In this document: positions 8,147-33,424 of the stretch, in pieces | How positions within the stretch are numbered: the first letter of the stretch is position 1 | Layout: each line of letters opens with the position of its first letter | From: Bacteroidota bacterium | Lineage (GTDB): Bacteria; Bacteroidota; Bacteroidia; Flavobacteriales_C; GCA-002722245 | Length of the DNA: 34,263 nt | Reading direction: 5' to 3' | NCBI GenBank assembly: GCA_026390935.1 | Contig: JAPLEZ010000065.1 | Coordinates: forward strand, 1-34,263 | The notes under the pieces: generated by a model | Databases searched by the model: none | What the model saw: the letters and a program-made list of their open reading frames with translations, nothing else | Told to the model about the DNA's origin: nothing | Position numbers and translations under genes: made by a program

Positions 8147-8147
8147 A

Positions 8148-8954: not shown

Positions 8955-8958
8955 GAAT

Positions 8959-10958: not shown

Positions 10959-11710
10959 TTTCTGAAATCCTTAAATTCCTTCATAAAAGTAGAAGCATAA
11001 ACAAAATCACACAACTCTTTATTATCGGCTTTTAGCAAGTCGTTGCGCTTACCTTCCCACCATTTTTGTCCGCTAAAAATAAAAAAGATATTATCGGAAA
11101 TTTCCATCACCGAGTTCATGTCGTGAGAAATAACAACCGTTGTCATGTTGTATTCCAAAGTAATTTCTCTGATCAGGTTATCAATAACTATAGAGGTTTG
11201 AGGATCTAAACCTGAGTTAGGCTCATCACAAAACAAATACTTCGGATTCATGGCGATGGCACGTGCAATGGCCACCCGCTTTTTCATCCCACCGCTTATT
11301 TCGTCAGGAAAAAGTTTATTGGAATTTGGGAGATTTACCCTTTTCAAACAAAAATTGGCGCGATCCAATCTTTCGGATTTGCTCATATTAGTGAACATTT
11401 CCAATGGAAAGGCCACATTTTCTTCTACTGTAAGTGAATCAAACAATGCTCCACCTTGGAAAAGCATACCAATTTCCTTTCTCAATTCTTTCTTCTGCTC
11501 GTAATCCATGTCAGTGAAATTCCTACCATCGTACCATATTTCACCACCGTCGGTCTCCACTAAACCTACAAGACATTTTAACAATACTGATTTCCCGGCG
11601 CCACTCTGACCAATTACCATGTTCACTTTGCCAGTTTCCAAATACATGGACACTTCGGAAATAATCTTTCTGTCGCCAAAAACCTTGGATATGTTGCCAA
11701 TCTCTATCAT
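10955..11710 (-). CDS. mlaF: MlaF-type ABC transporter ATP-binding protein
   Basis: 251-residue ATPase of a MCE/Mla-type phospholipid transporter, working with the permease encoded just upstream. Motifs in order: Walker A GQSGAGKS at residues 34-41, the Q-loop in LFQGGALFDSLTVEENVAFP, the signature ISGGMKKRVAIARAIA, Walker B YLFCDEPNSGLDP and the H-loop VVISHDMNSV. The GGALFDSLTVxENVxFPL phrase and the ISGGMxKRVxxARAI signature are characteristic of the MlaF/Ttg2A subfamily. In E. coli MlaFEDB moves phospholipids between inner and outer membrane to keep outer-membrane asymmetry. The start directly follows the mlaE stop, so translation is coupled. No mlaD (MCE substrate-binding subunit) follows; the next gene is the YidD-like one. 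Confidence 0.92.
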   Translation of the reverse strand: MIEIGNISKVFGDRKIISEVSMYLETGKVNMVIGQSGAGKSVLLKCLVGLVETDGGEIWYDGRNFTDMDYEQKKELRKEIGMLFQGGALFDSLTVEENVAFPLEMFTNMSKSERLDRANFCLKRVNLPNSNKLFPDEISGGMKKRVAIARAIAMNPKYLFCDEPNSGLDPQTSIVIDNLIREITLEYNMTTVVISHDMNSVMEISDNIFFIFSGQKWWEGKRNDLLKADNKELCDFVYASTFMKEFKDFRK

Positions 11711-12481
11711 TTAATTCAAAAGTAATTTAGTCAGAATGAGGTTGAACAAAATAATCACAATAGTACTGTAAACCACTGCTTTAGTACTCGATCTCCCCAC
11801 TTCTAGCGCCCCTCCTTTAGCGTTGTATCCGTGATAGGCCGAAACAGAAGTGAGTATAAATGCAAATACCACGGTTTTAGTGAGCGCATAAACGATATAG
11901 TAAGGAACAAAACCATACTGCAAGCCATAAATGTATTTATTGGTAGAAACAGAATCAGTAATTAAAGTAGCCAGATAGCCGCCAAAAATTCCTAAAGTCA
12001 TACTTGCCAGAATGAGGAAAGGAATAATAAGCACGCCAGCAACAATTTTAGGTAAAACCAAATGATTAACCGGATTAACACCCATAATTTGCAAAGCATC
12101 AATTTGTTCGGTAACTCTCATTGTTCCCAATTCAGAAGCAATGCTGGAACCTACCTTACCTACCAAAATCAAACAAATTATAGTAGGGGAAAACTCCAAA
12201 AGCATAGAATCACGTGTGGCAACTCCTTCGGCATAAGCCGGTATTAATGGATTTTCAAAGTTGTATGCGCTTTGAATTAAGATAACGGCACCCATGAAAA
12301 GAGAGAGAATAGAAACAAGAGCCAAAGAATCTACCCCGATGAGTTCAATTTCAACGCTGAGCCTCTTAAAAAATATTTTCATTTTCTCGGGTTTCGTGAA
12401 CGCCTTACGCAGCATTAGGAAGTAAGCCCCTAAGTGTGTTAAAATATTAATCATCCGAGCATTTTTACCAAAAATAGACAT
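11711..12481 (-). CDS. mlaE: MlaE-family ABC transporter permease
   Basis: 256 residues with five or so hydrophobic segments. The family core is visible: FSPTIICLILVGKVGSSIASELGTMRVTEQIDALQIMGVNP (described here as two blocks, LVGKVGSSIASELGTMRVTE and QIDALQIMGVNP), then LVLPKIVAGVLIIPFL. It forms the inner-membrane channel subunit for a phospholipid transporter with MlaF, whose gene abuts it. It is the first gene of the minus-strand operon and is separated by 49 bases from the divergently read lipoprotein gene at 12531. The N-terminal Met at 12481 gives a short cytoplasmic lead (MSIFGKNARMINI); an internal Met ten residues in is also possible. Confidence 0.92.
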   Translation of the reverse strand: MSIFGKNARMINILTHLGAYFLMLRKAFTKPEKMKIFFKRLSVEIELIGVDSLALVSILSLFMGAVILIQSAYNFENPLIPAYAEGVATRDSMLLEFSPTIICLILVGKVGSSIASELGTMRVTEQIDALQIMGVNPVNHLVLPKIVAGVLIIPFLILASMTLGIFGGYLATLITDSVSTNKYIYGLQYGFVPYYIVYALTKTVVFAFILTSVSAYHGYNAKGGALEVGRSSTKAVVYSTIVIILFNLILTKLLLN

Positions 12482-12530
12482 TATTTAGAAAATCATTTTA
12501 CTAAATTTACGATGTTATAAACCTTGTCGT

Positions 12531-12668
12531 ATGGAAAAGATAATTGCTTTGTGTTTTTGCTGCATGGTAATGTTATTTGGATGCAAGGTTTTTAAAAAAG
12601 ATAAGTGCAGTGATTGTCCGTCATTCAACAAAAGCAATGAGAAACTGGAAAGAGTTGAGAAAATATAG
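12531..12668 (+). CDS. Small lipoprotein (45 residues)
   Basis: A short reading frame: ATG at 12531, TAG at 12666. The product begins MEKIIALCFCCMVMLFGCKV, a lipoprotein signal with lipobox L-F-G-C and acceptor Cys18. The mature part is only 28 residues, polar, with a Cys pair (KDKCSDCPSFNKS). It overlaps the start of the next gene (ATG 12637) by 32 bases, in another frame, suggesting translational coupling. Small lipoproteins of this type are common before other genes in Bacteroidota, but I cannot name a family. The clear lipobox is the main reason to believe in it. Confidence 0.6.
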   Translation: MEKIIALCFCCMVMLFGCKVFKKDKCSDCPSFNKSNEKLERVEKI

Positions 12669-13269
12669 CAGTCGGGCGGACTTTTACAAACGTTTACCTG
12701 CTCAATCGATTGTTTTTGTGCACTCTTTAACTAGAGGGCAAGAATTTGACCTGAACATTACCGAACCTCGAAAAGGACGATTGGGCTGCTTCAGCAGATC
12801 ACGCTCAAAACCCTTAACCATAGAGCTCAACAGAGATTTAACGCCATATTTTTTATTGATAGTTTTTTTACACGAATGGGCGCATCTTGTTACTTGGAAC
12901 GAATACGGTTCCCGCGTTCAGCCACACGGTCAAGAATGGAAAGACAATTTCAAGAAAATCTTGAATAAACTACAAAAAAACACTCGTCTGCCTGTTGTAC
13001 TTAGACAAGCCATTGATTTAGAAGCCGACAATTTAAAAGCGAATATATACAGCAATCACATTTTGCTGAATGCCATTAAAATTGCCGATAAGCACAAACC
13101 GCAAACCGTTTTGCATGAATTGCCATTTAACAGTCATTTCAAGCTTACAGAGCGTACTGAGGTTTTTCGCAAAAAAGAAAAAATACGAGTACGTTACAAA
13201 TGCTATAATCTAGGCAACAAAAGATGGTACACCATTTATGCTTCTACTCCCGTGGAGCAAATAAATTAA
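12637..13269 (+). CDS. SprT-like zinc metalloprotease-domain protein
   Basis: About 210 residues from the ATG at 12637 (MRNWKELRKYSSRADFYKRL). A longer version would need a TTG at 12577 inside the preceding lipoprotein gene and adds 20 residues without family features. The domain matches SprT-like proteins: LTIELNRDLTPYFLLIVFLHEWAHL, with the zinc motif HEWAH at residues 79-83, then a further His in VQPHGQEWKDNF as likely third ligand. The C-terminal part carries a strand-rich section (KIRVRYKCYNLGNKRWYTIY). Eukaryotic SPRTN cleaves DNA-protein crosslinks; bacterial SprT proteins are largely uncharacterised, so the substrate is unknown. It is followed after one base by the barrel gene. Confidence 0.85.
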   Translation: MRNWKELRKYSSRADFYKRLPAQSIVFVHSLTRGQEFDLNITEPRKGRLGCFSRSRSKPLTIELNRDLTPYFLLIVFLHEWAHLVTWNEYGSRVQPHGQEWKDNFKKILNKLQKNTRLPVVLRQAIDLEADNLKANIYSNHILLNAIKIADKHKPQTVLHELPFNSHFKLTERTEVFRKKEKIRVRYKCYNLGNKRWYTIYASTPVEQIN

Positions 13270-13270
13270 A

Positions 13271-14473
13271 ATGGAAATCTTTGAAACAAACGCATCTCTC
13301 CTCTGCCTCCTTCTACTTTTTCCCTTTTTTTTAACCGCTCAAAACGACAGTACAGTCCGGGAAGTTGACCTCATTGATATAGCACGCAAAACATTGGGCA
13401 TCAAAGAAATCCCAAACAAGGATACGATCAAGGAAGACTCTACCGTATACATCGCAGTGCTTCCCGCCTTGGGTTACGCCATTCAAACTGGATTTACCGC
13501 CGTGATCATCTCCAACTTTTCATTTTATGCAGGAAAGGACAGAAAGACCAATATTTCTACCATCAACGCAATTGCTGAGTACTCGGAACTCAACCAAATC
13601 CTGGTGCCCATCAACCTGAACATCTGGTCAAAAGGAAATAAATGGAATTTCTCCGGCGACTGGCGCTATTATAATTATAACGCTTTCAATTACGGACTGG
13701 GTGGTAGCAGTACTGTTTCCAATGAGATGCTAGTGTATTATGATTACATAAGAGTGTATCAGCTGGCTTTAAAGAGAATTGCCCATAACTTCCTGGGAGG
13801 CATAGGCTATAACCTTGATTATCATTACAAAATTCGTGAAAAGGATCCTGAAAGTCAGCCCGACAACCATTTCAAAAATTATGGAAACGGACCACAAACA
13901 GTATCCTCCGGATGGTCGGCCAATTTACTTTACGACATTCGGAAAAATTCCAATGCCCCTGTAGCCGGCGAATATTTCGGAAATGCTATCTTCCGCGACA
14001 ACCGTACTTTTTTAGGCAGCGATAACAACTGGCAATCGCTTTTTACAGATTTCAGAACTTATATTGCCCTTCCTTCAAAAACAAAAAACATATTGGCCTT
14101 TTGGAGTTATAATATTTTTACTTTGGCGGGAAAACCGCCTTACTTCGATCTCCCAAGCACCGGATGGGACAGTTATACCAACGCAGCACGACAATTCCGT
14201 CAGGGAAGGTACATAGGAAAACACCTGATGTACCTGGAAACAGAATATCGTTTTAAAATATCCAGGAACGGGCTCTTTAATGGCGCCCTATTCGCCAACG
14301 TGCAAAGCGTAGCAGAATGGCCGAGCAACCAGTTTAAAAAAATAATTCCAGGCATTGGTTGTGGATTGCGCACCAAACTTAACAAGCGCTCCAATGTTAA
14401 CCTTTTGGTAAGCTACGGAATAGCAACTGATGGCTCAAAAGGATTTTTCTTTAACCTGGGCGAAGTATTTTAA
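13271..14473 (+). CDS. BamA/TamA-like outer-membrane barrel protein
   Basis: 400 residues. The N-terminus (MEIFETNASLLCLLLLFPFFLTAQ) is a signal peptide. After a 50-residue linker the protein consists of barrel-like strands. Features of the BamA/TamA or surface-antigen type include ILVPINLNIWSKGNKWNFSG, LLYDIRKNSNAPVAGEYFG and NNWQSLFTDFRTYIALPSKT, with GIGCGLRTKLNKRSNVNLLV and GFFFNLGEVF at the end. No POTRA domains are visible; the protein is short compared with true BamA (800 residues or so), so it is a barrel-only relative rather than the assembly factor. The start is one base after the SprT-like stop, so they are co-transcribed. Role unknown. Confidence 0.75.
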   Translation: MEIFETNASLLCLLLLFPFFLTAQNDSTVREVDLIDIARKTLGIKEIPNKDTIKEDSTVYIAVLPALGYAIQTGFTAVIISNFSFYAGKDRKTNISTINAIAEYSELNQILVPINLNIWSKGNKWNFSGDWRYYNYNAFNYGLGGSSTVSNEMLVYYDYIRVYQLALKRIAHNFLGGIGYNLDYHYKIREKDPESQPDNHFKNYGNGPQTVSSGWSANLLYDIRKNSNAPVAGEYFGNAIFRDNRTFLGSDNNWQSLFTDFRTYIALPSKTKNILAFWSYNIFTLAGKPPYFDLPSTGWDSYTNAARQFRQGRYIGKHLMYLETEYRFKISRNGLFNGALFANVQSVAEWPSNQFKKIIPGIGCGLRTKLNKRSNVNLLVSYGIATDGSKGFFFNLGEVF

Positions 14474-18928: not shown

Positions 18929-20443
18929 CTAATTGTCTTTACCGTAAGGTACCGGACTTCCAACTCTGTGCATTGCACATCTGAAACCAATGCAATCCGT
19001 TGCCTGATCTTCATCCAAATATCTTCTTGTACCAGGTACCATCCAATATGTTCTGTCTTTCCAAGAACCACCTTTATAAACACGTGTTCTTTGTGACATC
19101 ATAGAATGACCTTCAACCGTTGGCGCTGCATTTTCGTACATCAGCTTGTTTTGCTTCGCTGCATCTTTGTAACCTTCGTCAGTAAAGTAAACAGAAGAAG
19201 TGAAGTCACCATCTAAGAAGTCGATGTTATTCGCTCTTTTGTAGTTTCTTCTTTGCGCCAAGTTATCTTTTTCAACGTCAACATCTCTGTATACCATTCT
19301 ACCTAAACTATCTTTTTCAGCAAGTACATCAGGCTCACTCGCATCTTCCTGCAAAGTCTTGAATACATTACCTCTGAAAGCTCTAAATTCATTTCCGTCT
19401 TCCAAAGTCAACGGGCGATAAACGTCCATTACCCATTCAGATACGTTACCAGCCATATGATATAAACCATAATCATTAGGCCAGAAAGATCTAACCGGAG
19501 CAGTGATATCGGCAGCGTCATTCAACTTGCTCGCAACACCCATCATATCACCTTTCGCTCTCATGATGTTGGCCATCATTTCACCTTGCCATTTATCGTC
19601 TTTGTTACGCACCCAGTGTCCATTCCAAGGATAAACACGGCGGTCGATAATACGTTCATCGATTGTATTTCCAATTAAACCAATAGCTGCATATTCCCAT
19701 TCAGCTTCTGTTGGGAGACGATATTTTGGAAGAATGATACCATCTTCCCTCATTACTTTTCTGAAACCTCCAGTGTTAGGATCAAGGTTAACTAAATCAC
19801 CTTTTACTTCACCTACATATTGGCCATTCAAATAAGCATCAGTGTTAAAGTTGTCATCATCTTGTTGATTCGGATTCACTTTCAAAATTCCTTCTCTGAT
19901 CATGATCATTTCGTTCACACGGTCAGTTCTCCAAATACAATAATCAGTAGCTTGCAACCAGTTCACACCTACAACCGGATATTCATTGTAAGCCGGATGT
20001 CTGTAGTACCAATCAACATATTCTTCAGTGTAAGCCAATTCATCTCTCCATGCCAATGTATCTGGCAAAGCTTTTTTAGGAACCTCAGGATAAGATTGTC
20101 CGAAAACGCGATTCAACCAGTAAACATACTCTCTCCAGTCGATATTACGGATTTCTGTTTCATCCATATAAAAAGAAGAAACCGACATTGTTCTCGGTTT
20201 GCTATCCCATTCATACATTACATCTTGCTCATTTTGACCCATGGTAAATCTACCACCTTCAACTAAGATCAAGCCCGGACCAGTTTCCTGTTCACCGTAA
20301 GGTTGTACTTCAAAACCACCATTTTTAGGATCGTTATTGTTCCAACCAGTTGTGTTGGATACATCTTTCCCGCAACCATAAAATAATGCCAGGGCTGCTA
20401 TCGCACAAACACTACCTGATTTTAAATGCCTCTTAGGGTTCAT
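18929..20443 (-). CDS. gldJ: Gliding motility/T9SS lipoprotein GldJ
   Basis: 504 residues. The N-terminus is a lipoprotein signal (LALFYGCGKD) with acceptor Cys24. The rest is a formylglycine-generating-enzyme-like (FGE-sulfatase) domain, shared by GldJ and GldK: GGRFTMGQNEQDVMYEWDSK, SSFYMDETEIRNIDWREYVY, YRLPTEAEWEYAA, WPNDYGLYHMAGNVSEWVMD, and near the end RVYKGGSWKDRTYW and CIGFRCAMHR. The DDVMxxW...SFYMDETE start and the NYKRANNIDFLDGD segment match GldJ rather than GldK. In Flavobacterium johnsoniae GldJ is needed for gliding and stabilises GldK, an outer-membrane-associated ring component of T9SS. It follows the porP/sprF-like gene by 26 bases and precedes its own terminator. Confidence 0.9.
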   Translation of the reverse strand: MNPKRHLKSGSVCAIAALALFYGCGKDVSNTTGWNNNDPKNGGFEVQPYGEQETGPGLILVEGGRFTMGQNEQDVMYEWDSKPRTMSVSSFYMDETEIRNIDWREYVYWLNRVFGQSYPEVPKKALPDTLAWRDELAYTEEYVDWYYRHPAYNEYPVVGVNWLQATDYCIWRTDRVNEMIMIREGILKVNPNQQDDDNFNTDAYLNGQYVGEVKGDLVNLDPNTGGFRKVMREDGIILPKYRLPTEAEWEYAAIGLIGNTIDERIIDRRVYPWNGHWVRNKDDKWQGEMMANIMRAKGDMMGVASKLNDAADITAPVRSFWPNDYGLYHMAGNVSEWVMDVYRPLTLEDGNEFRAFRGNVFKTLQEDASEPDVLAEKDSLGRMVYRDVDVEKDNLAQRRNYKRANNIDFLDGDFTSSVYFTDEGYKDAAKQNKLMYENAAPTVEGHSMMSQRTRVYKGGSWKDRTYWMVPGTRRYLDEDQATDCIGFRCAMHRVGSPVPYGKDN

Positions 20444-20469: not shown

Positions 20470-21483
20470 TTAAAATGACGGACAACTCAATGGTCTGAAT
20501 TTTTTTGTTCGTGGTTTACAATCGAACAGAAGAGCCAGAGAAATCTCATGAGAACCCGCTGTAGCATTACTTAATTTAGAAACCGTTACATCATAACTGT
20601 ACCCGAATTTAAAGAAGCCCTGTTGCACACCCACCAATAAAATAAAGGAATCCGAATTTCTGTACCAAATACCACCCACTATAGGTCCTTTGGTAACGTA
20701 CACCCCTAAATTTAATTGCTGAAAATCTTTTTGCATACGGAATAGGACGTTAGGAGAAATTGAACTTTGCGGAGCTCCCTTATTACGGCCCTTTTGTTGA
20801 GGCCCAATTGGAATAACTGCTCCAGCATGACCTGTAAATTTCATTGGAAGAGGACTTGGTCCGAAGAAACCTTCATTTGGTTCAAGAATATGATGAACCG
20901 CACCTCCTATAAAAAACGACTTACTATATCCCAAAATCCCAGCGGAGAAATCCACAGTAGAAACGGTTGTGCTCCCTGGTTGAACCTCATTGGTTTTATA
21001 AATAAAACCGTACTTAGCGTCAATCATGTCACCAAAAGTTAACTTTGACCAGTCAACAGATTTTTGATGATAAGTCCCCTGAAAGCCCACTTTAATAGAA
21101 AATGACTTACTAACCGCTAAGTGGTAAGAGTAAATTAAACTTGCATTCAAAGTATTTAAAGTTCCCTCACCTGCGCGGTCTTGTGTTACAAGCACACCGA
21201 TACCACCGGATAAAATATCTACATGCTGGTCATACGAAGCACTATAAGTAACAAAAGTTCCGGAAATAGCTGGCCATTGATTTCGGTAATTTGAAACAAA
21301 CCGAGGACAGCGGTTAGTCCCTGCCATTGCTGGATTCAGGTACAAAGGGTTAGCATAAAATTGAGTAAACTCAGGATCCTGAGCACGGGCAAGCGTTGGA
21401 TTGACTAATTCGCTTAGAATCATCAATAGCGTTACAACGCCCAGCTTACTAAACATTAAGATAGTTTTACTTTCCACAGGCAC
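20470..21483 (-). CDS. PorP/SprF-family type IX secretion outer-membrane protein
   Basis: 337 residues; the start at 21483 gives a long lead, and a Met nine residues in (21456, MFSKLGVV) would give a more usual signal peptide ending at LARAQ. The mature start QDPEFTQFYANPLYLNPAMA is the hallmark of PorP/SprF proteins, followed by barrel-like strands (GGIGVLVTQDRAGEGTLNTL, ASLIYSYHLAVSKSFSIKVG) and C-terminal FKFGYSYDVTVSKLS. PorP is a core T9SS protein; SprF-like paralogues assist particular substrates or bind PorE/peptidoglycan. Which kind this is cannot be told; the usual porK-porL-porM-porN genes are not nearby. It heads a two-gene transcript with gldJ, divergent from porU. Confidence 0.85.
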   Translation of the reverse strand: MPVESKTILMFSKLGVVTLLMILSELVNPTLARAQDPEFTQFYANPLYLNPAMAGTNRCPRFVSNYRNQWPAISGTFVTYSASYDQHVDILSGGIGVLVTQDRAGEGTLNTLNASLIYSYHLAVSKSFSIKVGFQGTYHQKSVDWSKLTFGDMIDAKYGFIYKTNEVQPGSTTVSTVDFSAGILGYSKSFFIGGAVHHILEPNEGFFGPSPLPMKFTGHAGAVIPIGPQQKGRNKGAPQSSISPNVLFRMQKDFQQLNLGVYVTKGPIVGGIWYRNSDSFILLVGVQQGFFKFGYSYDVTVSKLSNATAGSHEISLALLFDCKPRTKKFRPLSCPSF

Positions 21484-21633: not shown

Positions 21634-24600
21634 GTGAGACGATTATATTCAGTGATACAAGTCTTTTTATTTTTGTACGCAGCAGACCTTGCAGCTCAAA
21701 ATCGCCATGTTGATTTAAACACGGAACCCCTTATCTATCAAGACAATCAGAACTTTCAAATTGCTTGGCACAACGAATCCATTTCTCTTTCAACAATTGC
21801 CGATTCGGTAAAAGTAAGTGTACGCAACGTAATTTCAGTACCCTTTGAAAAAAAAGGAATTGACTTAAAAACACTGCCCAATTCCTTTCAATGGAAATCA
21901 GAAAAAGGAGTGTCGGCAAAAAAAACAGTAGTCTCTGTTTTGATCTTCCCTCTTTTTAAAAATGAAAATGGAGACATTCAAATAGTTAAATCCTTTGACT
22001 ATGATATTGAAATTGTGTCAGTTTCGAAGCCAAAAAGCAATGTGCAATTTTATTCTACTAATCAATCAGTGCTTGCTTCTGGCAATTGGTATAAATGGGG
22101 TGTGGCGGAAAAAGGGGTTTACAAGCTAGATTATTCTGCAATAAAAAACACAGGCATTGATGTAAATGAAATTTCGAAATTGGAAAACATTAAACTGCAT
22201 GGAAGAGGCGGAAAAATGCTGCCGTATCCAAACAGTGAATCCAGATATGATGATTTGCCAGAACTCGCAGTGCAACGGGTGGACAATGGCAACGGTTTTT
22301 TCGACAACGGGGATTACTTGCTATTTTATGCTGAAGGTCCGCACTTGTGGAATTTCGACACTCTTTCAGGCAAATACAGTCATGACTATAATATTTACAG
22401 CGATTCGGTATATTATTTCATGACTCTTAATTCCGATTCTCCAAAAAGCTTTGTTAGTCAGAGTGAATCTGCGCTTCCTCAAAATAAATTCGTAACGTCT
22501 TTTGATGAACATATTTTTCATGAAAAAGATGAGATCAACCTTTTATTGAGTGGGAGATTGTGGTTAGGCAATCACTTTCAGGGGAGTGGTAATCAATCCT
22601 TCCAATTTGTTTTACCTGATCTTGTCCCCTTTTCAACTATTGACATCAAAGCACAACTATTTGCAAAAAGCTCTGATGCAAATGGGAGCAACTTTATTAT
22701 CACTGCAAATGACAGCATCTCCCCTCCTATTAATATTGCCAGAATCACAGGGAATTCCACCGATGATATTGCCAAAAGTAAAACAAGCACAATGTCGATT
22801 ATAGCGAACAACGACAGTGTGATAATTGATGTTCAGCTCCTTGCTCCAGATGTGTTTACCGAAGGATGGATTAATTACATTGAGCTATCAGGCAGAAGAA
22901 AACTACAATATAATGGTTCACCATTTTTCTTCAGAGATCACAGTATTCTTGGGAATGGAAATGTAGCGCATTACAAAATAAGCAAGGCAACTAGCGCTTT
23001 GTCATTATGGGAAATCACCAATTTCACGTCGCCGAAAGAACAAATTAATTCCTTTTCTGACGACTCCATTGTTTTTAATGTTGCAGCAGATTCATTGAGA
23101 GAATTTGTATTGTTTGATCCTCAAAAGGCAGCTGCACCTAATTACATTGGCAAAATAAATAATCAAAATCTTCATGCTTTGGATCCCGCCGATTTAATTA
23201 TTGTTGCCCACACTTCCTTTTGGAGTGAGGCAAAAAGATTGGCCGACTTTCATCAAAATATTGATTCGCTCAGCGTGCATCTAGTGGATATTCAACAAAT
23301 TTACAATGAATTTTCAGGAGGTATTGAAGATATTGTTGCTGTTCGTGATTTCATGAAAATGTTATATGATAAAGCATCTGGACCCTCTGATGCGCCAAGA
23401 TATTTATTGCTGTTTGGTGACGGCACCTACGATTATAAAAATATCTTAAAAGGCAGCACCAACTTTGTTCCCACCTATCAATCTGTAAATTCCACTAAAA
23501 GTACAGCTTCTTATACCTCTGATGATTTCTTTGGATTACTTGATAACAATGAAGGAAACTGGGGAAATTTTGATGGAGATTTACTAGATATTGGCATCGG
23601 GCGTTTTCCGGTAACAAGCAAAGAGCAGGCAAAAATTTTGGTGGATAAAGTGCTCGCCTATTCCAACTACTTTGATGCTTCAAATTCCTCTTACCAAAAG
23701 CAGCAAAAGGAAGTCTATGCACCTTGGCGTAACGAAGTCTTATTCATGGCCGACGATGAAGATTATAATATTCACTTAAATCAAGCCAATCAACTCGCCA
23801 CCAAAGTTGAAAATGAGCAGCCACAATACAATGTAGATAAAATTTATATTGATGCTTTCCAACAAACACAAACCAGCGAAGGAGACCGCTATCCCGATGC
23901 TAAAGAGGCAATAAAAAACAAAATCAATGAAGGTGTTTTCTTGGTAAATTATACCGGACATGGCGGAGAAGATGGATTAACCTCTGAAGGAGTTTTTGAA
24001 ACTTCTGATATCATTGGGCTGAAAAACGGTATCAAAATGCCACTATTTGTTACTGCAACTTGTGAATTCAGTCGCTACGATCTTACCGACAGAACATCAG
24101 CTGGAGAGCTTCTTTTTCTTAATCCACATGGAGGTGCAATTGCTTTATTATCTACTGTGCGGTTAGTTTTTTCTACACCTAATTTTAATTTAAATAAAAC
24201 ATTTTATAACGTAGCCTTTAGCCAACCAGCAGGCTATCAAACTCGTCTTGGCGACATGTTTAAGGCGACAAAGGTGATCAATAATGGAGGAATTAATGAC
24301 CGCAATTTCACTTTGCTGGGTGATCCAGCTTTGCGAATGGCTTTTCCAAAGCATGAAATAATATTGAATAAAGTCATGAGTTCTTATGACAACACCGCAA
24401 CTGATACTATAAGAGCGCTAATGAAAGTAAAAATGGAAGGAAGCATTACTGACACTGCAGGCAATAAATTAACATGGTTCAACGGTTCCATTTATCCGAA
24501 AATTTTAGATAAAGCCGTTGATTATAACACTCTTGTCAATGATGCCCCAGGATCAGCTTATCCATTCACCCTGCAACAAAACCTGATTTTTAAAGGCAAC

Positions 24601-25434
24601 GCAACTGTAAAACAAGGCGACTTCAGTTTTGAATTTATGGTGCCTAAAGATATTGCCGCTGCCTTTGGCGCAGGAAAAATAAGTCTGTATGCCGAAAATG
24701 GAAATGGCATTGACGCCCAGGGATACAACAAAAGTATTACGATTGGTGGGGCTTTCGACAAGGCTAGTGCCGACAGCGACGGTCCTGAAGTAAATGTATA
24801 CATGAATGATTCTTCATTTATTACAGGCGGACTTACCTCTGCTTCTCCGCTATTGATCGTTAATGTGTGCGATTCCAGCGGTATTAATTTAACAAAAGGT
24901 AGTGTAGGTCATGAGATGTCAGCAATTCTGGATAATTCTACAAGTCAGGTTATTGATCTTACTTCGCACTACCAACCCGCGTTGAATTCCTATCAAAAAG
25001 GTACTATTCAATACCAGTTAGAGGATTTAAGCGAAGGCAAGCACTCCATTGAAGCAAAAGTTTGGGACAGCTACAACAATTCTTCCCGAGGATATACTGA
25101 ATTTATCGTGTCTACCAATGCCAATACAGCATTGGAACACGTATTGAATTATCCAAATCCATTCACTAGCAAAACTGGGTTCTATTTTGAACACAATCAG
25201 ATTGGGAAAAACTTAGAGGTGACAGTGCAAATTTTTACGGTATCGGGCAAGTTGATAAAAACGATCACCGAGGGAATTTATGCCGACAGCAAGAGAGTGG
25301 GGCCAATTGATTGGGACGGACTTGATGATTTTGGAGATGCTATTGGCAGAGGTGTTTATGTTTATAAAATAAAAGTGAAGAGCGACAACGGAACTTCTGA
25401 CAATGTTTTTGAAAAACTGGTCATATTAAAATAA
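21634..25434 (+). CDS. porU: Type IX secretion sortase PorU, first copy
   Basis: About 1266 residues from the GTG at 21634, which gives a good signal peptide (M-RRLYSVIQVFLFLYAADLAA-Q); an in-frame TTG at 21583 would add 17 polar residues. No in-frame ATG fits. The middle holds the gingipain-like C25 peptidase: LLFGDGTYDYKN, DDFFGLLDNNEGNWG, IGRFPVTSKEQA, then NYTGHGGEDG with catalytic His776 and FVTATCEFSRYD with Cys810. The C-terminus is a T9SS-like domain (LNYPNPFTSKTGF, VYVYKIKVKSDNG). In T9SS, PorU is a surface-bound peptidase that cleaves sorting domains and joins cargo to the attachment lipid or sugar. It is 33 bases before a second porU, giving a duplicated pair. Around the active His it reads GLTSEG where the second copy has GWADER. 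Confidence 0.92.
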   Translation: MRRLYSVIQVFLFLYAADLAAQNRHVDLNTEPLIYQDNQNFQIAWHNESISLSTIADSVKVSVRNVISVPFEKKGIDLKTLPNSFQWKSEKGVSAKKTVVSVLIFPLFKNENGDIQIVKSFDYDIEIVSVSKPKSNVQFYSTNQSVLASGNWYKWGVAEKGVYKLDYSAIKNTGIDVNEISKLENIKLHGRGGKMLPYPNSESRYDDLPELAVQRVDNGNGFFDNGDYLLFYAEGPHLWNFDTLSGKYSHDYNIYSDSVYYFMTLNSDSPKSFVSQSESALPQNKFVTSFDEHIFHEKDEINLLLSGRLWLGNHFQGSGNQSFQFVLPDLVPFSTIDIKAQLFAKSSDANGSNFIITANDSISPPINIARITGNSTDDIAKSKTSTMSIIANNDSVIIDVQLLAPDVFTEGWINYIELSGRRKLQYNGSPFFFRDHSILGNGNVAHYKISKATSALSLWEITNFTSPKEQINSFSDDSIVFNVAADSLREFVLFDPQKAAAPNYIGKINNQNLHALDPADLIIVAHTSFWSEAKRLADFHQNIDSLSVHLVDIQQIYNEFSGGIEDIVAVRDFMKMLYDKASGPSDAPRYLLLFGDGTYDYKNILKGSTNFVPTYQSVNSTKSTASYTSDDFFGLLDNNEGNWGNFDGDLLDIGIGRFPVTSKEQAKILVDKVLAYSNYFDASNSSYQKQQKEVYAPWRNEVLFMADDEDYNIHLNQANQLATKVENEQPQYNVDKIYIDAFQQTQTSEGDRYPDAKEAIKNKINEGVFLVNYTGHGGEDGLTSEGVFETSDIIGLKNGIKMPLFVTATCEFSRYDLTDRTSAGELLFLNPHGGAIALLSTVRLVFSTPNFNLNKTFYNVAFSQPAGYQTRLGDMFKATKVINNGGINDRNFTLLGDPALRMAFPKHEIILNKVMSSYDNTATDTIRALMKVKMEGSITDTAGNKLTWFNGSIYPKILDKAVDYNTLVNDAPGSAYPFTLQQNLIFKGNATVKQGDFSFEFMVPKDIAAAFGAGKISLYAENGNGIDAQGYNKSITIGGAFDKASADSDGPEVNVYMNDSSFITGGLTSASPLLIVNVCDSSGINLTKGSVGHEMSAILDNSTSQVIDLTSHYQPALNSYQKGTIQYQLEDLSEGKHSIEAKVWDSYNNSSRGYTEFIVSTNANTALEHVLNYPNPFTSKTGFYFEHNQIGKNLEVTVQIFTVSGKLIKTITEGIYADSKRVGPIDWDGLDDFGDAIGRGVYVYKIKVKSDNGTSDNVFEKLVILK

Positions 25435-25467
25435 TATATTCACGTTTTCGTTTACAATAAAAAATTA

Positions 25468-28400
25468 ATGAAAGCCTTCTTCTCCATAATTTTTGTCACT
25501 CTTTTCACATCTGCATTTTCATCAGAAATCACTTTGGTATGGAACAACAAGTGGTTCAATCCTGAAAATCGAAAAACAAATTCTCCCTTTGACAACGCTA
25601 CAGAATTAAGTGAATATGGTCACTTGCCTTTTTTTCAGCAAACTCAAATTTTTGAAGGAAAACTGAACTCTTTTGATGTTGAATTTACAACTTTGAAAAC
25701 AGAAGCACTGACAGCTTCTGAACTAAAAAACTTAAATGACATTGCTCTTCCAGAGTCGTTTATTGTAAAAAAACAAACAGGTCAACACCTCAAAAATGGT
25801 GTTGCAGAAGTGTACATTAGCAGCATTAGAAAAAATGCATTAGGCATTGCAGAGAAATTAATTTCTTTTCAATTACAAATAAAAAACGCTTCCATTTCCC
25901 CAACAACTTTTGCTTCCAAAAGCGCATATAAATCGGGAAGTTCAAGTGTTTTAGCTTCTGGCAAATGGTATAAACTTAAGGTAACTTCAACTGGTTTGTA
26001 CAAAATTGACAAAGCGCTGCTACAAAGTATGGGAGTAGATCCCGCTTCTATTAACCCCAAGAATCTCCGCATTTATGGTAATGGCGGAGGTATGCTTCCT
26101 GAATTGATAAAAACTTATACGCCTGATGATCTAAGGGAAAATGCAATTATGGTTGCAGGCGAAAACGACGGTGTTTTTAACGATAATGATTATGCCCTCT
26201 TTTATGCAACTGGTCCGCATACGTGGACTTACGATACGCTTACAAAGAAATATTCACATAAATTCAACGTGTATTCGGATGCTGCATATTACTATATAAC
26301 ATTTGATTTAGGTGCTGGAAAGCGCGTTGGCACACAGTTGCAAAACGCTGGCGCTGCAACGCACACAACTACAAAATTTGATGATTATTCATTTCAGGAA
26401 AACGACAGTTACAACTTGATTAAATCCGGAAAAACCTGGTTTGGCGACCTTTTCAATGTAGTCACCAAAGAAAGATCGTATTCGTTCTCCTTTCCAAATA
26501 TGGATCTCTCAACACCCGCTTTGATGAATACACAACTCGCCGTGCGATCGTCTCAAACCTCATCAATGACAGTGCAAGTGAATGGATCATCTTTGGTAAA
26601 TTTAAATGGCCTATCACCTATCTCCAGCGGCTATGATGATCCTTACGCTACAATAAAAACGTCGGTCGCCAATTCATTTACTCCTTCCTCATCATCGTTC
26701 AATATAAAAATGACTTACAATCTTCCTTCAGGAAATAATGAAGCAGAATGCTGGTTGAACTACTTGGAAGTAATTGTTAGAAGAAATCTCACTCTGTCAG
26801 GAAATGGAATTGTTTTTCGCGATGCCAACACTACAGGAAAAAACAACATAGTTGAATATCAAATTAGTGGCAACAGCGGATCAGAAATATTATGGGATAT
26901 CACCGACCTCAGTAACATTAAAGCGCAAGCCTATGAGTATAACGGCGGACAAATAAAATTCACGCAAACGGCCGACACCTTGAAGGAATATATGCTCTTT
27001 TCCGGGAGCAATTTCGCGCTTCCTAAATTTGTTGAAGTAGTTTCCAATCAAGATATACATGGAAAAGGAATAGTGGATTATGTAATTGTAGTTGCGCCCG
27101 AATTTTGGAACGCTGCACAAAAATTATCCGATTTTCATAAAACTTACAGCAACTTAGATGTACTAGTGGTTACGCCAGATCAAGTGTATAACGAATTTTC
27201 ATCTGGATCAAAAGATGTCACCGCCATCCGAAACATGATGCGCTATTTTTATAAGAATGCAAGTAGCCCACAAGAATTACCAAAATACCTATTGTTGTTT
27301 GGAGATGGTAGTTATGATTTCAAATCAAAAATAGCTGCTGGTGATTTTGTTCCGGTGTATGAGTCGGCAGAGTCTATTGACCCCACCTCTTCTTATGCGA
27401 CCGATGATTATTTTGGATTCTTGGATGACAACGAAGGAAACATGGATCCCAACTCTTCCGACAATGTTGACATTGGTATTGGCAGGTTCCCCGTTACCAG
27501 CCTTGAACAAGCCAATGGCGTTGTGAATAAAGTGATATCGTATTCGGGCCATGGTTCACAAGTTGCAACCAATAGCACTTTAACACCCTACATTAAAGAT
27601 GTATATGGCAATTGGAGAAATCAAATTGTTTTCATTGCCGATGATGGCAGCGATCCAAATGGAAACTACGACTATGCTGAGCATGTTTCTGGCTGCGAAA
27701 CCATGTCGGATCTATTGCGCAATTTAGACAGTAACTACAACCATCAAAAAATATATTTTGATGCTTATCTGAAACAATCATCCGCAGGAGGAGGAAGATA
27801 TCCAGATGTGGAACGATCCATCAATCAAGCTTTAGACAAAGGCGCACTTGTTGTTAGTTACGTTGGGCATGGCGGTGAAGCGGGATGGGCCGACGAACGA
27901 GTTTTAAGCATTCAGCAAATCAACCAATGGAGCAACTTTACGAATTTGCCATTCTTTATTACTGCCACTTGTGAATTCAGCAGATTCGATGATCCACAAA
28001 GAGTTGCTGCTGGTGAATATGTTTTAAACAACAGCAACGGAGGAGCAATTGGTCAGCTCACAACTACTAGGTTGGTGTACGGTTCTTCAAATCTTGATTT
28101 CACTAAAAACTTTTTCAAAAGTACTTTTATCAACGCGGCCACCCGACCAACATTGGGACAAGCACTAACGGAGGCAAAAGCACTTACCGGCAACGGTACC
28201 TACAACAACAAAAGAAAGTTTTTTCTGATGGGTGACCCTGCAGTAACACTCGCTTTTCCTGAAAACAAAGTAGTTACAACTGCCATCAATCAACAACTTG
28301 TGAGTAACAGTGACACCATTAAAGCATTGATGAAAGTGAAGGTAGAAGGGAAAATGGTGGATCGACAAGGGGCGTTTTTATCTTCATACAACGGCATCAT

Positions 28401-29340
28401 TTATCCCACTGTGTATGATAAGGCGCAACAAATGCAAACGTTGAATAACGTAAACAAATCAATTTTGAATTTCGACGTTCAAAACAATATTTTATACAAG
28501 GGAAAAGCAACAGTAAGCAAGGGTTTGTTCAGCTTTGAGTTCATTGTTCCTAAAGACATCAGTTATCAATTTGGCAATGGAAAAATAAGCTACTACGCAG
28601 CCAATAAGGAGGAGGATGCATGTGGTTTTTATGAAAACTTCATTATTGGTGGTAGTGATACAAACGCTCTTAAAGACGAAAGTGGTCCGGAAGTGCATTT
28701 ATACATGAACGATTCTAGTTTCGTGATGGGCGGCCTAACCGATCAAAATCCAAAAATATTTGCAGTGCTTTACGACGAAAGCGGCATCAACACAACAGGA
28801 AGCAACATTGGACACGATATAGTCGCCACTCTCGATAAACAAAGCAGTCAATCCATTATTTTAAATTCCTATTATGAAGCCAATCTCGACAGCTACAAAA
28901 AAGGGACAATTAATTATCCGCTGGAAAACCTTTCAGAAGGTGAACATCAGCTCACTCTAAAAGTATGGGATGTCAACAATAATTCTGCTGAAAAAAATAC
29001 TGTCTTTGTTGTTTCTTCCTCGGCTGAACTAGCTTTAAGTCATGTGCTGAATTATCCGAATCCATTTACAACAAGTACTGAATTTTGGTTTGAGCACAAC
29101 CACGCCACAGGATCTTTAAATGTGCAAATTCAAATATTTACAATTTCTGGAAAACTGGTTAAAAACATCAACACAACAATAGATGTAAGCGAGCGTTATA
29201 AGCCTACTCCAATTCAATGGGATGGACTTGATGACTTTGGCGACTCTATAGGAAAAGGTGTATATGTGTACCGTTTGAAAGTTCAGACAGAAAACGGTGA
29301 GTACGCTGAAAAAACAGAAAAACTGGTGATTCTTAAATAA
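25468..29340 (+). CDS. porU: Type IX secretion sortase PorU, second copy
   Basis: 1290 residues, starting with a signal peptide (MKAFFSIIFVTLFTSAFS). It can be matched to the first copy along its whole length: YLLLFGDGSYDFKSK, ATDDYFGFLDDNEGNMD, IGIGRFPVTSLEQA, SYVGHGGEAGWADERVL with His801, and FFITATCEFSRFDDPQR with Cys835. The region ends GGAIGQLTTTRLVYG. The C-terminal domain has LNYPNPFTTSTEFWFEHN and GVYVYRLKVQTENG. Its active-site neighbourhood is closer to the PorU consensus I know (GWxxERVL, SRFDDPxxxAA) than that of the first copy, so this may be the housekeeping sortase. It is 35 bases upstream of porV, its expected outer-membrane partner. Confidence 0.93.
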   Translation: MKAFFSIIFVTLFTSAFSSEITLVWNNKWFNPENRKTNSPFDNATELSEYGHLPFFQQTQIFEGKLNSFDVEFTTLKTEALTASELKNLNDIALPESFIVKKQTGQHLKNGVAEVYISSIRKNALGIAEKLISFQLQIKNASISPTTFASKSAYKSGSSSVLASGKWYKLKVTSTGLYKIDKALLQSMGVDPASINPKNLRIYGNGGGMLPELIKTYTPDDLRENAIMVAGENDGVFNDNDYALFYATGPHTWTYDTLTKKYSHKFNVYSDAAYYYITFDLGAGKRVGTQLQNAGAATHTTTKFDDYSFQENDSYNLIKSGKTWFGDLFNVVTKERSYSFSFPNMDLSTPALMNTQLAVRSSQTSSMTVQVNGSSLVNLNGLSPISSGYDDPYATIKTSVANSFTPSSSSFNIKMTYNLPSGNNEAECWLNYLEVIVRRNLTLSGNGIVFRDANTTGKNNIVEYQISGNSGSEILWDITDLSNIKAQAYEYNGGQIKFTQTADTLKEYMLFSGSNFALPKFVEVVSNQDIHGKGIVDYVIVVAPEFWNAAQKLSDFHKTYSNLDVLVVTPDQVYNEFSSGSKDVTAIRNMMRYFYKNASSPQELPKYLLLFGDGSYDFKSKIAAGDFVPVYESAESIDPTSSYATDDYFGFLDDNEGNMDPNSSDNVDIGIGRFPVTSLEQANGVVNKVISYSGHGSQVATNSTLTPYIKDVYGNWRNQIVFIADDGSDPNGNYDYAEHVSGCETMSDLLRNLDSNYNHQKIYFDAYLKQSSAGGGRYPDVERSINQALDKGALVVSYVGHGGEAGWADERVLSIQQINQWSNFTNLPFFITATCEFSRFDDPQRVAAGEYVLNNSNGGAIGQLTTTRLVYGSSNLDFTKNFFKSTFINAATRPTLGQALTEAKALTGNGTYNNKRKFFLMGDPAVTLAFPENKVVTTAINQQLVSNSDTIKALMKVKVEGKMVDRQGAFLSSYNGIIYPTVYDKAQQMQTLNNVNKSILNFDVQNNILYKGKATVSKGLFSFEFIVPKDISYQFGNGKISYYAANKEEDACGFYENFIIGGSDTNALKDESGPEVHLYMNDSSFVMGGLTDQNPKIFAVLYDESGINTTGSNIGHDIVATLDKQSSQSIILNSYYEANLDSYKKGTINYPLENLSEGEHQLTLKVWDVNNNSAEKNTVFVVSSSAELALSHVLNYPNPFTTSTEFWFEHNHATGSLNVQIQIFTISGKLVKNINTTIDVSERYKPTPIQWDGLDDFGDSIGKGVYVYRLKVQTENGEYAEKTEKLVILK

Positions 29341-29375: not shown

Positions 29376-30620
29376 ATGATGAACAGAATAGATTTCCTTG
29401 GCAACAAAAAAACTTATGCTTTACTAGCGCTATCTTTTCTATTTGTGGAAGGCTATGGGCAGTTGTCCACTCAGTCTAAAGATAAATTCTCCAGCGTTGG
29501 CCTTAACCCAATTACCACTTCAGTTCCATTTTTATTGATTGCTCCTGAATCTCGAGGTGGAGCGATGGGAGATGCTGGTGTTGCTTCTTCTCCTGATGCA
29601 GTTTATATGCATTGGAATGCTTACAAATTGGATTTTATCGAAAAACAAACAGGTGTTTCAATCGCCTATACTCCTTGGTTAAAAACGTTAGTGCCGGATA
29701 TTAATTTAGGATATGTATCCTTCTTTCACCGCCTCAACAGCAAAGGAACAATGGGTGGATCACTGAGATATTTTAGTTTGGGTAAAATTGATTTTACCGA
29801 TCAAAACGGTGCATCTCTTGGATCACGCACACCCAATGAATTAGCGGTTGATTTAGGCTACGCGCACAAATTAAGCAAAAACTTTTCTGGTGCTTTTTCA
29901 CTGCGTTACATTTATTCAAATCTTACTCAAGGAGTAGATGCCTCTACAAAACCAGCGAGTACAGTGGCAGCCGATCTTTCGGGATATTATAGAACTGATA
30001 TAAAAATTGGGAAAAACAAAGGATTGTACGCAGCAGGAATTAACATCTCCAACTTAGGTGGAAAAGTGGGATATACTGATTCAGGGAAAAGAAATTTTAT
30101 TCCAATGAACCTAAAATTAGGAACGTCTCTAAGCCTTGATATTGATGATTACAATAAAATCACCTTCATGGTAGATTTTAATAAATTACTGGTTCCAACG
30201 CTTCCGATTTATGCAAAAGACAGCACAGGTGCCTATATCAAAAATTCGGATGGTTCTCTAGTGATTAACGAGGGAGATGGAATGGACCCCAATGTATCAG
30301 TTGCTCAAGGGGTGTTCCAATCTTTTTATGATGCGCCAGACGGGTGGAAAGAAGAACTACAAGAAATCAATATCTCAGGTGGTTTAGAATATGTTTACGA
30401 TAAGCAGTTTGCTTTGAGAGCCGGATATTTTTACGAAGCTCCTAATAAAGGCAATCGCCAATACTTCACGATGGGAGCTGGTTTGAAATACAGTATTTTC
30501 AATCTGGATTTCTCGTACCTAGTTTCAATGTTGCGCAACAATCCTTTAGACAACACGCTGCGCTTCACCTTATCTTTCAACTTTGATGACATCAAGGCTG
30601 CTGAAGAAAAATCAGAATAA
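29376..30620 (+). CDS. porV: Type IX secretion outer-membrane channel protein PorV (LptO)
   Basis: 414 residues; the first two codons are both ATG, so either 29376 or 29379 is the start. The signal peptide (YALLALSFLFVEGYGQ) is followed by the conserved PorV start SVPFLLIAPESRGGAMGDAG and ASSPDAVYMHWNAYKLDF, then barrel strands of the FadL-like kind (GGSLRYFSLGKIDFTDQNGA, LGYAHKLSKNFSGAFSLRY, ALRAGYFYEAPNKGNRQY). PorV is an outer-membrane barrel that binds the sorting domain of exported cargo and hands it to PorU. The gene follows two porU copies and is two bases upstream of ispF, so a four-gene transcript (porU1, porU2, porV, ispF) is likely. Confidence 0.93.
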   Translation: MMNRIDFLGNKKTYALLALSFLFVEGYGQLSTQSKDKFSSVGLNPITTSVPFLLIAPESRGGAMGDAGVASSPDAVYMHWNAYKLDFIEKQTGVSIAYTPWLKTLVPDINLGYVSFFHRLNSKGTMGGSLRYFSLGKIDFTDQNGASLGSRTPNELAVDLGYAHKLSKNFSGAFSLRYIYSNLTQGVDASTKPASTVAADLSGYYRTDIKIGKNKGLYAAGINISNLGGKVGYTDSGKRNFIPMNLKLGTSLSLDIDDYNKITFMVDFNKLLVPTLPIYAKDSTGAYIKNSDGSLVINEGDGMDPNVSVAQGVFQSFYDAPDGWKEELQEINISGGLEYVYDKQFALRAGYFYEAPNKGNRQYFTMGAGLKYSIFNLDFSYLVSMLRNNPLDNTLRFTLSFNFDDIKAAEEKSE

Positions 30621-30622
30621 TC

Positions 30623-31105
30623 ATGTTTCCATTCAGAATAGGTTTTGGCTTTGATGTTCACCAACTGGTGGACGGACGTGACTTTTGGCTCGGAGGAATA
30701 AAAGTGGAACACCACAAAGGAGCCCTCGGACATTCAGATGCTGATGTAATGATTCACGCCATTTGCGATGCATTACTTGGCGCAGCAAACCTTGGCGACA
30801 TCGGCAAACACTTCCCTGATACATCTTCGGAATTCAAAGGCATCGACAGTAAAATATTGCTGTCGAAAGTAATTGAACTATTAAAAGAAGAAAGCTACGC
30901 TATTGGTAACGTAGATGTAACGCTATCGCTGGAGCGTCCTAAAATAGCTCCTTATCTACCATTAATGCGCACAACACTTGCAGCAGTGATGGCCATAGAA
31001 GAGAACCAAATCTCAATCAAGGCTACCACTAACGAAAAGCTGGGTTATGTAGGCGCAGAGCTTGGCGTTAATGCCTATGCGGTGGCACTCATACATAAAA
31101 TCTGA
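30623..31105 (+). CDS. ispF: 2-C-methyl-D-erythritol 2,4-cyclodiphosphate synthase
   Basis: 160 residues, full length for IspF. It forms methylerythritol cyclodiphosphate in the non-mevalonate (MEP) isoprenoid pathway. The metal site is present: Asp11 and His13 in GFGFDVHQL, and His45 in DADVMIHAICDALLGAA. Other family motifs are GHSDADV, GDIGKHFPDT, and near the end the substrate-binding IKATTNEKLGYVGA. The ATG follows the porV stop by two bases, so ispF is probably co-expressed with the secretion genes without a functional link. Confidence 0.96.
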   Translation: MFPFRIGFGFDVHQLVDGRDFWLGGIKVEHHKGALGHSDADVMIHAICDALLGAANLGDIGKHFPDTSSEFKGIDSKILLSKVIELLKEESYAIGNVDVTLSLERPKIAPYLPLMRTTLAAVMAIEENQISIKATTNEKLGYVGAELGVNAYAVALIHKI

Positions 31106-31168: not shown

Positions 31169-32176
31169 ATGGCTAAAAAAGAAACAAAAGAAAAGTATGG
31201 CAAGGAGGTCTACCTAATGTGGTACGAACTTATGCTCCTCATTCGCAAGTTTGAGTAAAAAGCCGGACAGCTTTACATACAGCAAAAAATCAGAGGTTTC
31301 TGTCACCTTTACATCGGACAGGAAGCAGTAGTAGCAGGTTGCGAAGCAGTACTTACCCCAGAAGACAAAATGATTACAACCTATAGAGATCACGCACATC
31401 CTATAGGAAGAGGAACAGACCCAAAATTAATTATGGCTGAATTGTACGGTAAAATTACCGGCGTTTCAAAAGGAAAAGGTGGATCAATGCACATGTTCGA
31501 CAAGGAGCACAACTTCTTTGGAGGACACGGTATTGTTGGTGCACAAATTCCATTGGGTGCTGGAATTGCATTTGCCGATAAGTACAATGGCAATAAAGCA
31601 GTAACGCTTTGTTTCATGGGTGATGGCGCAGTTCGTCAAGGTGCTTTCCACGAAACATTAAACATGGCCATGACCTGGAAACTCCCAGTGATCTTTGTGA
31701 TTGAAAACAATCAATACGCCATGGGAACTTCAGTGGAAAGAACTTCAAACGTTACTGATCTCTATAAATTAGGATTGGCTTACGACATGCCTTCTTTCCC
31801 TGTGGATGGAATGCGTTGTGAAGACGTAGCAGATGCAGTGGAAGAAGCTGCGGCGCGTGGAAGAAAAGGAGATGGCCCAACTTTGTTGGAAATCAGAACC
31901 TACCGTTACAAAGGTCACTCCATGTCCGATCCGGCAAAATACAGATCCAAAGAAGAATTGGAATGCTACAAAGAACAAGATCCTATTAGTTCTGTATTAA
32001 ATACAATCAAAAACAAAAAATACGCTAGCGACAAAGAGCTGGAAGCTATTGAAGAAAGAGTAAAAGCTAAAGTAGACGAAAGCGTTCAATTTGCTGAAGA
32101 ATCATCGTTCCCTGAATTAGATGAATTGTATAAAGACGTATACTATCAAAAGGACTATCCTTTTATAATGGATTAA
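31169..32176 (+). pseudogene. pdhA: Pyruvate dehydrogenase E1 alpha subunit, interrupted by an in-frame stop
   Basis: Thiamine-diphosphate-dependent subunit that decarboxylates pyruvate in the pyruvate dehydrogenase complex. From the ATG at 31169 the frame reads MAKKETKEKYGKEVYLMWYE, then LMLLIRKFE and a TAA at 31256-31258 (codon 30), and goes on in the same frame with KAGQLYIQQKIRGFCHLYIG. Family members have Glu at this place (RRFEEKAGQLY), so GAA to TAA is the simplest change. The remainder is intact: YRDHAHPIGRG, the ThDP site GDGAVRQGAFHETLNMA and ENNQYAMGTS, RYKGHSMSDPAKYRS. Whole length 335 codons, normal for the family. The next in-frame ATG (31370) would drop 67 residues, including part of the conserved N-terminus. 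It is followed after 13 bases by pdhC. Whether it is a true pseudogene or an error is open. Confidence 0.85.
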
Positions 32177-32189
32177 AATATTTACCCCT

Positions 32190-33424
32190 ATGGCCGAAAT
32201 TGTTAGAATGCCCAAATTGAGTGATACCATGACCGACGGTGTGGTAGCTGTGTGGCACAAAAAAGTTGGAGATACTGTTAAGTCAGGTGAACTCCTAGCA
32301 GAAATTGAAACCGATAAAGCAACAATGGAATTCGAATCCTTTCAGGATGGTGTTCTTTTGCACATCGGTTGTGAAAAAGGAGTTAGCGCTCCTGTAGAGC
32401 CATTCTTGGAAAAGCGGGCGAAGATGTGTCTGCATTAATTGCTTCCGAAAAAGATAAAAAACCTGCAGCTGCAGCGGTGGCGGCTCCTGCTCCGGCAGCA
32501 GCGCCTGCTCCAAAAGCACCTGCACCAGCTCCTGTTGCCGCTAAAGCAGCAGTAGCAGCTCCAAGAGCAGCAGCTCCTGCTCCTGTTGAATCTAACGGCA
32601 GAGTATTCGTTTCTCCATTGGCTAAAAAATTAGCTGAAGAGAGACATATCAATATCAATAAATTACGAGGATCAGGTGAAGGAGGGCGAGTAGTTAAAAG
32701 AGATATCGATAATTTCAATCCGGGATCTTCAGTAGCACAAATAGAAAGTTTCAGCGAAGTTGCCGTTACTCAAATGCGTAAAATCATTGCCACCCGATTA
32801 GGTGAGTCATTGTTTACCGCTCCTCATTTTTATTTAACTATCGACATTGATATGGATGCAATCATGGCTGCAAGAAAAGCCATCATTGAGGCCAGCGGTG
32901 AAAAAGTATCTTTCAATGACTTGGTGATCAAAGCGGTATCTTCTAGTTTAGGAAAACATCCAGCTATAAATTCTTCATGGCAAGGCGACAGAATCCGTTT
33001 CAATGAGCATGTTCACATTGGTGTGGCCATGGCGGTGGAAGATGGTTTAATTGTGCCTGTTGTGAAATTCGCGAATGCTAAATCTGTTCAGGAAATTTCT
33101 GCTCAGGTGAAAGACTTCTCAGCACGCGCTAAAGCGAAAAAACTTTCTCCTGATGAATATGCAGGAAGCACCTTTACAATTTCCAATTTAGGAATGTTCG
33201 GTTTGGAAGAATTTACAGCCATTATAAATTCACCTAACGCTTGTATTTTAGCTGTTGGTGCAATTCGTCAGGTGCCTGTTGTTAAAAACAATGCAGTCGT
33301 TCCAGGCAATATGATGAAAGTAACTTTGAGTTGCGACCATCGTGTGGTGGATGGTGCTACTGGTGCTGCTTTCCTTCAAACATTGAAAAGAGCAATAGAA
33401 AATCCGGTATTGATTTTCATGTAA
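32190..33424 (+). pseudogene. pdhC: Pyruvate dehydrogenase E2 (dihydrolipoamide acetyltransferase), frameshifted
   Basis: E2 core of the pyruvate dehydrogenase complex. Frame 1 (32190-32438) encodes the lipoyl domain, with lipoylation Lys43 in IETDKATMEFE, and ends in a TAA after a stray tail. The rest lies in the -1 frame: ILGKAGEDVSALIASEKDK from about 32402, an Ala/Pro-rich linker to about 32590, the E1/E3-binding domain (VSPLAKKLAEERHININKLR, GSGEGGRVVKRDI) and the catalytic domain with DHRVVDGATGAAFLQTL and the end PVLIFM. The shift sits between 32399 and 32402 (GAG-CC-ATT). By memory of homologues about ten bases are missing here, not one. The two halves leave no full-length product unless ribosomes shift. 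Together with the damaged pdhA this is a decayed or misassembled locus. Confidence 0.85.

Follow-up and report, generated by a model that had tools for sequence, protein, structure and literature searches.

The window analyzed here is a stretch of 34,263 nucleotides that constitutes one contig (C130) of a near-complete assembly of 3.76 Mb in 155 contigs from an uncultured member of the Bacteroidota. As originally predicted, it contains two complete adjacent porU genes, at 21634–25434 and 25468–29340, separated by 33 bases; both encode full-length proteins that are collinear up to the C-terminus, and the His/Cys dyad is kept in each. The features of the locus are as follows.

18929–20443, minus strand: GldJ-like lipoprotein gene (TIGR03524, 426 bits, slightly below the cut-off of 458), within a murF-gldJ-porP block
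20470–21483, minus strand: gene of the PorP/SprF family (TIGR03519, 235 bits), divergent neighbour of the porU pair
21634–25434, plus strand: porU copy 1, 1266 residues from a GTG codon (NF033707, 1282 bits), adjoining porP/gldJ; member of the copy-1 clade
23197–24339, plus strand: C25 protease domain of copy 1, residues 522–902 (PF01364, 363 bits)
23959–23961, plus strand: codon of the catalytic His776 of copy 1 (GHGG), aligned with the active-site His of 6ZA2 and invariant in its clade
24061–24063, plus strand: codon of the catalytic Cys810 of copy 1 (TATC), aligned with the Cys of 6ZA2 and invariant in its clade
25150–25386, plus strand: C-terminal type A sorting-like domain of copy 1, residues 1173–1251 (TIGR04183, 25.5 bits)
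25468–29340, plus strand: porU copy 2, 1290 residues from an ATG codon (NF033707, 1330 bits), adjoining porV
27079–28251, plus strand: C25 protease domain of copy 2, residues 538–928 (PF01364, 348 bits)
27868–27870, plus strand: codon of the catalytic His801 of copy 2 (GHGG), aligned with the His of 6ZA2 and invariant in its clade
27970–27972, plus strand: codon of the catalytic Cys835 of copy 2 (TATC), aligned with the Cys of 6ZA2 and invariant in its clade
29053–29301, plus strand: C-terminal type A sorting-like domain of copy 2, residues 1196–1278 (TIGR04183, 26.5 bits)
29376–30620, plus strand: porV (NF033710, 483 bits), beginning 35 bases downstream of copy 2; the genome's sole canonical PorV gene
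30623–31105, plus strand: ispF (TIGR00151), closing the conserved porU-porV-ispF block

Both copies match the "T9SS sortase PorU" model NF033707 at model positions 1–1095, with scores (1282 and 1330 bits) far above its cut-off of 420 bits, and their dyads (H776/C810 in copy 1, H801/C835 in copy 2) align with the His and Cys of Porphyromonas gingivalis PorU (PDB entry 6ZA2). The C-terminal domains both lie just above the TIGR04183 cut-off of 23 bits. The AlphaFold2 models are confident (mean pLDDT of 88 and 86 for copies 1 and 2), and 6ZA2 is the top structural match of both, with E-values of about 1e-76 over approximately 1200 columns. The TM-score to 6ZA2 is about 0.5 with an rmsd of 18 Å for both models, which probably reflects either a different placement of the domains in these long chains or an uncertainty in their predicted placement. 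Judged from homology, both copies should perform PorU chemistry.

In a BLASTP comparison, the two proteins align over 1214 columns at 41% identity (E=0.0). Conservation is best in the protease and C-terminal parts, and the N-terminal 100–150 residues or so are scarcely alignable between the copies. The model of the N-terminal "long form", NF052318, is exceeded by copy 2 (45.8 bits) but not by copy 1 (22.9 bits, cut-off 40), despite a similar length of the N-terminal region in copy 1. The start of copy 1 may lie either at the GTG at 21634 (1266 residues) or at the TTG at 21583, where the mechanically defined open reading frame begins (1283 residues). An assembly artefact as the source of the pair was rejected, as 59% of the aligned residues differ and the identical tandem and gene order are found in five separately assembled genomes. 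Downstream of the block, at 31169–33424, pdhA is interrupted by an in-frame stop after some 30 codons and pdhC changes frame near 32400; both genes are intact and full-length in the relative G007, and these two defects are probably errors of the window's assembly.

Two PorU proteins encoded in tandem are present in all five genomes of the window's genus. Four of the five genomes of the sister genus also have both copies, unlinked, the fifth genome being 74% complete. Families with a single porU carry murF-gldJ-porP and porU-porV-ispF on opposite strands. The two porU genes of the window's genus occupy precisely this slot between porP and porV, so that porV adjoins copy 2 directly and copy 1 by way of copy 2. 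The sister genus has this slot interrupted between the two genes: copy 1 is found with porP-gldJ-murF and copy 2 with porV-ispF, and porV adjoins copy 2 only. The gene order in both genera thus fits an in-place tandem duplication before the genera parted, followed by rearrangement. In one sister-genus genome (L071:12150–15267, G003:C15) gldJ is itself doubled in tandem beside the copy-1 porU, the two products (496 and 495 residues) being each about 70% identical to the window's GldJ. The nearest named records are environmental metagenome-assembled genomes (MAGs) called Flavobacteriales (CANFBW01, JAHEZL01, and JAHEZM01); one further near record, the MAG CAMBXP01, is labelled Chryseobacterium gleum, a doubtful name. 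More generally, MAGs from this and neighbouring groups (L123, L143, L126, and L133) were deposited as Chryseobacterium gleum or Chitinophaga pinensis, but their PorU sequences group with those of other Bacteroidota MAGs and the deposited names look doubtful.

A phylogeny of both proteins had been proposed in the original prediction as the means to recognize a split predating the genus and a conservation of both copies. This is indeed what was obtained: each copy forms a clade of its own in every tree, and no near-complete genome of the family lacks either of them. Under a mixture model with bootstraps, the copy-1 clade is supported at 100/99 and the copy-2 clade at 99/93, and the genera and species follow a matching order inside each. 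A recent, within-genus duplication was rejected, since a tree forcing the two copies of the genus together gives a p-AU of 0.005. The split of the copies therefore firmly predates both genera. Concerning its deeper origin, the first tree joins the two family clades (SH-aLRT 88), and a tree holding all family copies as one clade is not rejected (p-AU 0.265). In larger free trees the two clades are not sisters: copy 1 groups with L183, and copy 2 either groups with L036 or falls on an unresolved backbone. These placements, which involve long single branches (L183 and L036), are probably due to long-branch attraction. A duplication in the family's own stem is likely, mainly on the grounds of synteny.

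Both copies have been maintained since. The catalytic dyad is invariant in the 10 copy-1 and 9 copy-2 sequences of the family. Between the window and G007, dN amounts to 0.18 for copy 1 and 0.13 for copy 2 with dS saturated or about 2.0, which indicates purifying selection on both; in the same comparison both porU copies evolve faster than porP and gldJ. A decaying pseudogene can be discarded for either copy in view of the family-wide open frames and dyads and the low dN. We found no gene conversion: in every segment of the protein, the identity between copy 1 and copy 2 within a genome equals that between genomes. Only seven positions are fixed differently between the two clades, six of them in the protease domain and none at the dyad. 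Beside the dyad, no clade-wide signature separates the copies, except for an Asn-to-Ser tendency in copy 2; a Trp-to-Leu change following GHGGE in copy 1 is confined to the window's genus. The pair thus consists of real, ancient, and actively maintained paralogues.

We further analyzed the rest of the genome for components of the type IX secretion system (T9SS) and for its cargo. Searches of the genome recovered one canonical PorV, one PorQ (contig C91), and one PorZ above cut-off, together with sorting domains of which at least 150 are of type A and about 60 of type B. This genome thus combines a heavy T9SS load with an attachment machinery that, PorU apart, appears to be present only once; with its single canonical PorV, PorQ, and PorZ, no second attachment complex is visible that would serve the two PorU copies separately. 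A third, distant C25 protein is assigned by NCBIfam as PorU2 and lies next to PorV2 on contig C66 (at about 7632–14000, loci L074 and L264; 1749 and 392 residues, respectively), bringing the PorU-type proteases of this genome to three. In addition, contig C78 encodes at about 33800–36300 (L263) a barrel of the PorV family that remains under the cut-offs of PorV, PorQ, and PorV2 and comes directly after a gene whose product has a C-terminus resembling those of PorZ and PorU.

The original prediction also held that T9SS organisms usually have one porU next to porV. This stands as a rule, but the exceptions are more numerous than was supposed. PorU was found in 361 of 395 sampled genomes of the class and two copies in about 12 of 351 outside the family, a rough count for which the best two candidates per genome were scored and in which some second copies are partial or located at contig ends (G349, G425, and G450). 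Tandem porU genes precede porV in L159, L163, L175, and L177 (one MAG lineage, together with L164 and L165), in L132, in G344, and, with two small genes in between, in G494, while a second porU lies elsewhere in the genome in G331, G338, G354, G388, G517/G592, and G600. On the tree, doubled copies pair among themselves in the L159 lineage (96/84), in f82 (100/100), and in G331, G338, G344, and G388 (each 100/100); the G354 pair groups with a single-copy relative, and the L132 copies fall into a clade that includes single-copy relatives. Besides the doubling in the window's family, at least eight more, apparently independent, have thus occurred in porU, and a few of the dispersed pairs could be contaminating contigs. 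Doubling is thus uncommon but not unique to the window's family. In G344 the locus (L269, G344:C22:134500–154000) reads porV-porV-porU-porU-porV-ispF, with two extra PorV-like genes ahead of the pair and a third porV after it. The His/Cys dyad is kept in 187 of 188 aligned PorU sequences, the sole exception being the second tandem copy of L132 (L132:12657–16529, JAQZBR010000001.1), where GHGG is changed to GYGG and TATC to TATA in a frame that remains open over its full length of 1291 residues, making it a candidate pseudo-sortase.

In P. gingivalis, PorU removes the sorting domain of the cargo and joins the new end to A-LPS delivered by PorZ, PorU itself sitting on PorV (PMC5562754, PMC8545088). 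According to a 2023 review, which cites Mizgalska 2021, PorU is inhibited by dimerization: in the latent dimer, the protease of each monomer is obstructed by a hairpin from its partner (PMC10202324). The same review lists as an open question how PorU picks anchoring or release of its cargo. The phylogenetic survey of PMC7323717 retained only the best hit per strain, so that PorU paralogues would not have appeared in it. A description of paired PorU was not found in the open-licence papers searched, which is weak evidence of novelty.

Based on these results, the explanation that we favor overall, at somewhat better than even chances, is a duplication in the family stem after which both copies were kept as active sortases dividing the labor within a shared machinery. 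An ancestral porU located between the divergent porP-gldJ-murF and porV-ispF blocks would have been duplicated in place before the two genera separated, and both daughters would have been retained since as full-length sortases with intact catalytic residues. In the window's genus the tandem would have persisted and is probably transcribed together with porV. Rearrangement in the sister genus would have parted the copies, so that copy 1 remained beside gldJ/porP and copy 2 beside porV. The T9SS would export each protein by way of its C-terminal domain, which would stay uncleaved, and the protein would sit on the outer-membrane barrel PorV, where its Cys/His pair would cut the sorting domain off type A cargo, the cut cargo being either released or handed to an LPS acceptor. 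The two copies would then differ in the cargo that they take or in the frequency of anchoring versus release. Such a division of labor is most likely the reason for keeping both: that the copies have been kept, have diverged, and have remained unconverted speaks for different duties, and the presence of PorV, PorQ, and PorZ as one protein each points to a shared complex. Weighing against it are the small number of positions fixed differently between the clades and the lack of another PorV or PorZ as the mark of a separate attachment route. A difference in acceptor choice or a partial redundancy of the copies may also play a part. The two cargo classes or two chemistries of attachment suggested in the original prediction are possible; inspection of 28 type A domains by eye gave no split into two classes, the number being too small to exclude one.

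Among the alternatives, it seems unlikely that the copies do the same job and are kept for dosage or robustness in exporting a very large T9SS cargo. The type A load of the window's genome is among the larger ones seen, and several unrelated genomes with doubled porU also carry large loads (G344, G354, and G331), as this explanation would have it. However, 41% identity without gene conversion would be unusual for pure dosage, and the sister-genus genomes keep both copies with only 51–73 type A domains, not above the 73 to at least 150 of neighbours with a single porU. Load alone is therefore a weak reason for two copies, and as the reason for them it is inconsistent with the sister-genus figures; retention could nevertheless partly reflect dosage. 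A regulatory pair, in which one copy would act mainly as a heterodimeric partner setting the latency of the other, is quite unlikely. The dimer latency of P. gingivalis PorU described in the review indicates that a paralogue could set the latency of its partner, the L132 second copy retains its full length after losing both His and Cys, as would be expected of a regulatory or structural partner, and tandem co-expression suits a complex; yet both dyads are invariant in all orthologues of the window's family, and the copies are unlinked in the sister genus. Finally, the failure of the larger free trees to join the two clades means that one copy could be older or come from elsewhere. It is very unlikely, though, that such a PorU, older or acquired by transfer, came to lie next to the resident gene: a location right between porP and porV and collinear with the resident gene is what a tandem duplication would produce, the first tree joins the clades, the one-clade tree is not rejected, and the rival placements lie on long branches.

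Extending the division of labor beyond this family, we tentatively propose, with the odds somewhat against it, that duplication of T9SS sortases at the porU-porV locus, followed by specialization, is a recurrent event, leaving some Bacteroidota with two sortases of distinct function on one shared PorV/PorQ/PorZ complex, the window's family being an old and stable case. Such specialization may take the form of one anchoring and one releasing sortase, or one copy may be catalytic and its partner regulatory or dead. Two sortases that are old, intact, and diverged and that share one attachment machinery make this lineage a natural separation-of-function experiment; most relatives having one PorU, the window's family offers a natural system for asking how PorU chooses its jobs.

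With respect to known systems, the window copies share with P. gingivalis PorU (family C25, 6ZA2) and its Bacteroidota orthologues whole-length homology, the identical Cys/His pair, the C-terminal type A-like domain, and the neighbouring porV; they differ in being two diverged copies instead of one, and in an N-terminal "long form" region that is poorly conserved between them. The putative PorU2/PorV2 system (NF052324/NF052325) likewise places a second PorU-like protease beside a PorV-like barrel, and its pair is present on contig C66. However, PorU2 is a distantly related protein of about 1750 residues, and neither window copy corresponds to it, since both fall well short of the NF052324 cut-off of 450 bits with scores of 166 and 181. 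The other doubled porU genes resemble the window's in providing two full-length PorU per genome, often in tandem before porV, but they are apparently separate duplications, whereas the window's pair is the one found across a whole family. Among them the L159 lineage is a close parallel to the window's family, with both copies predicted to be catalytic and falling into reciprocal clades.
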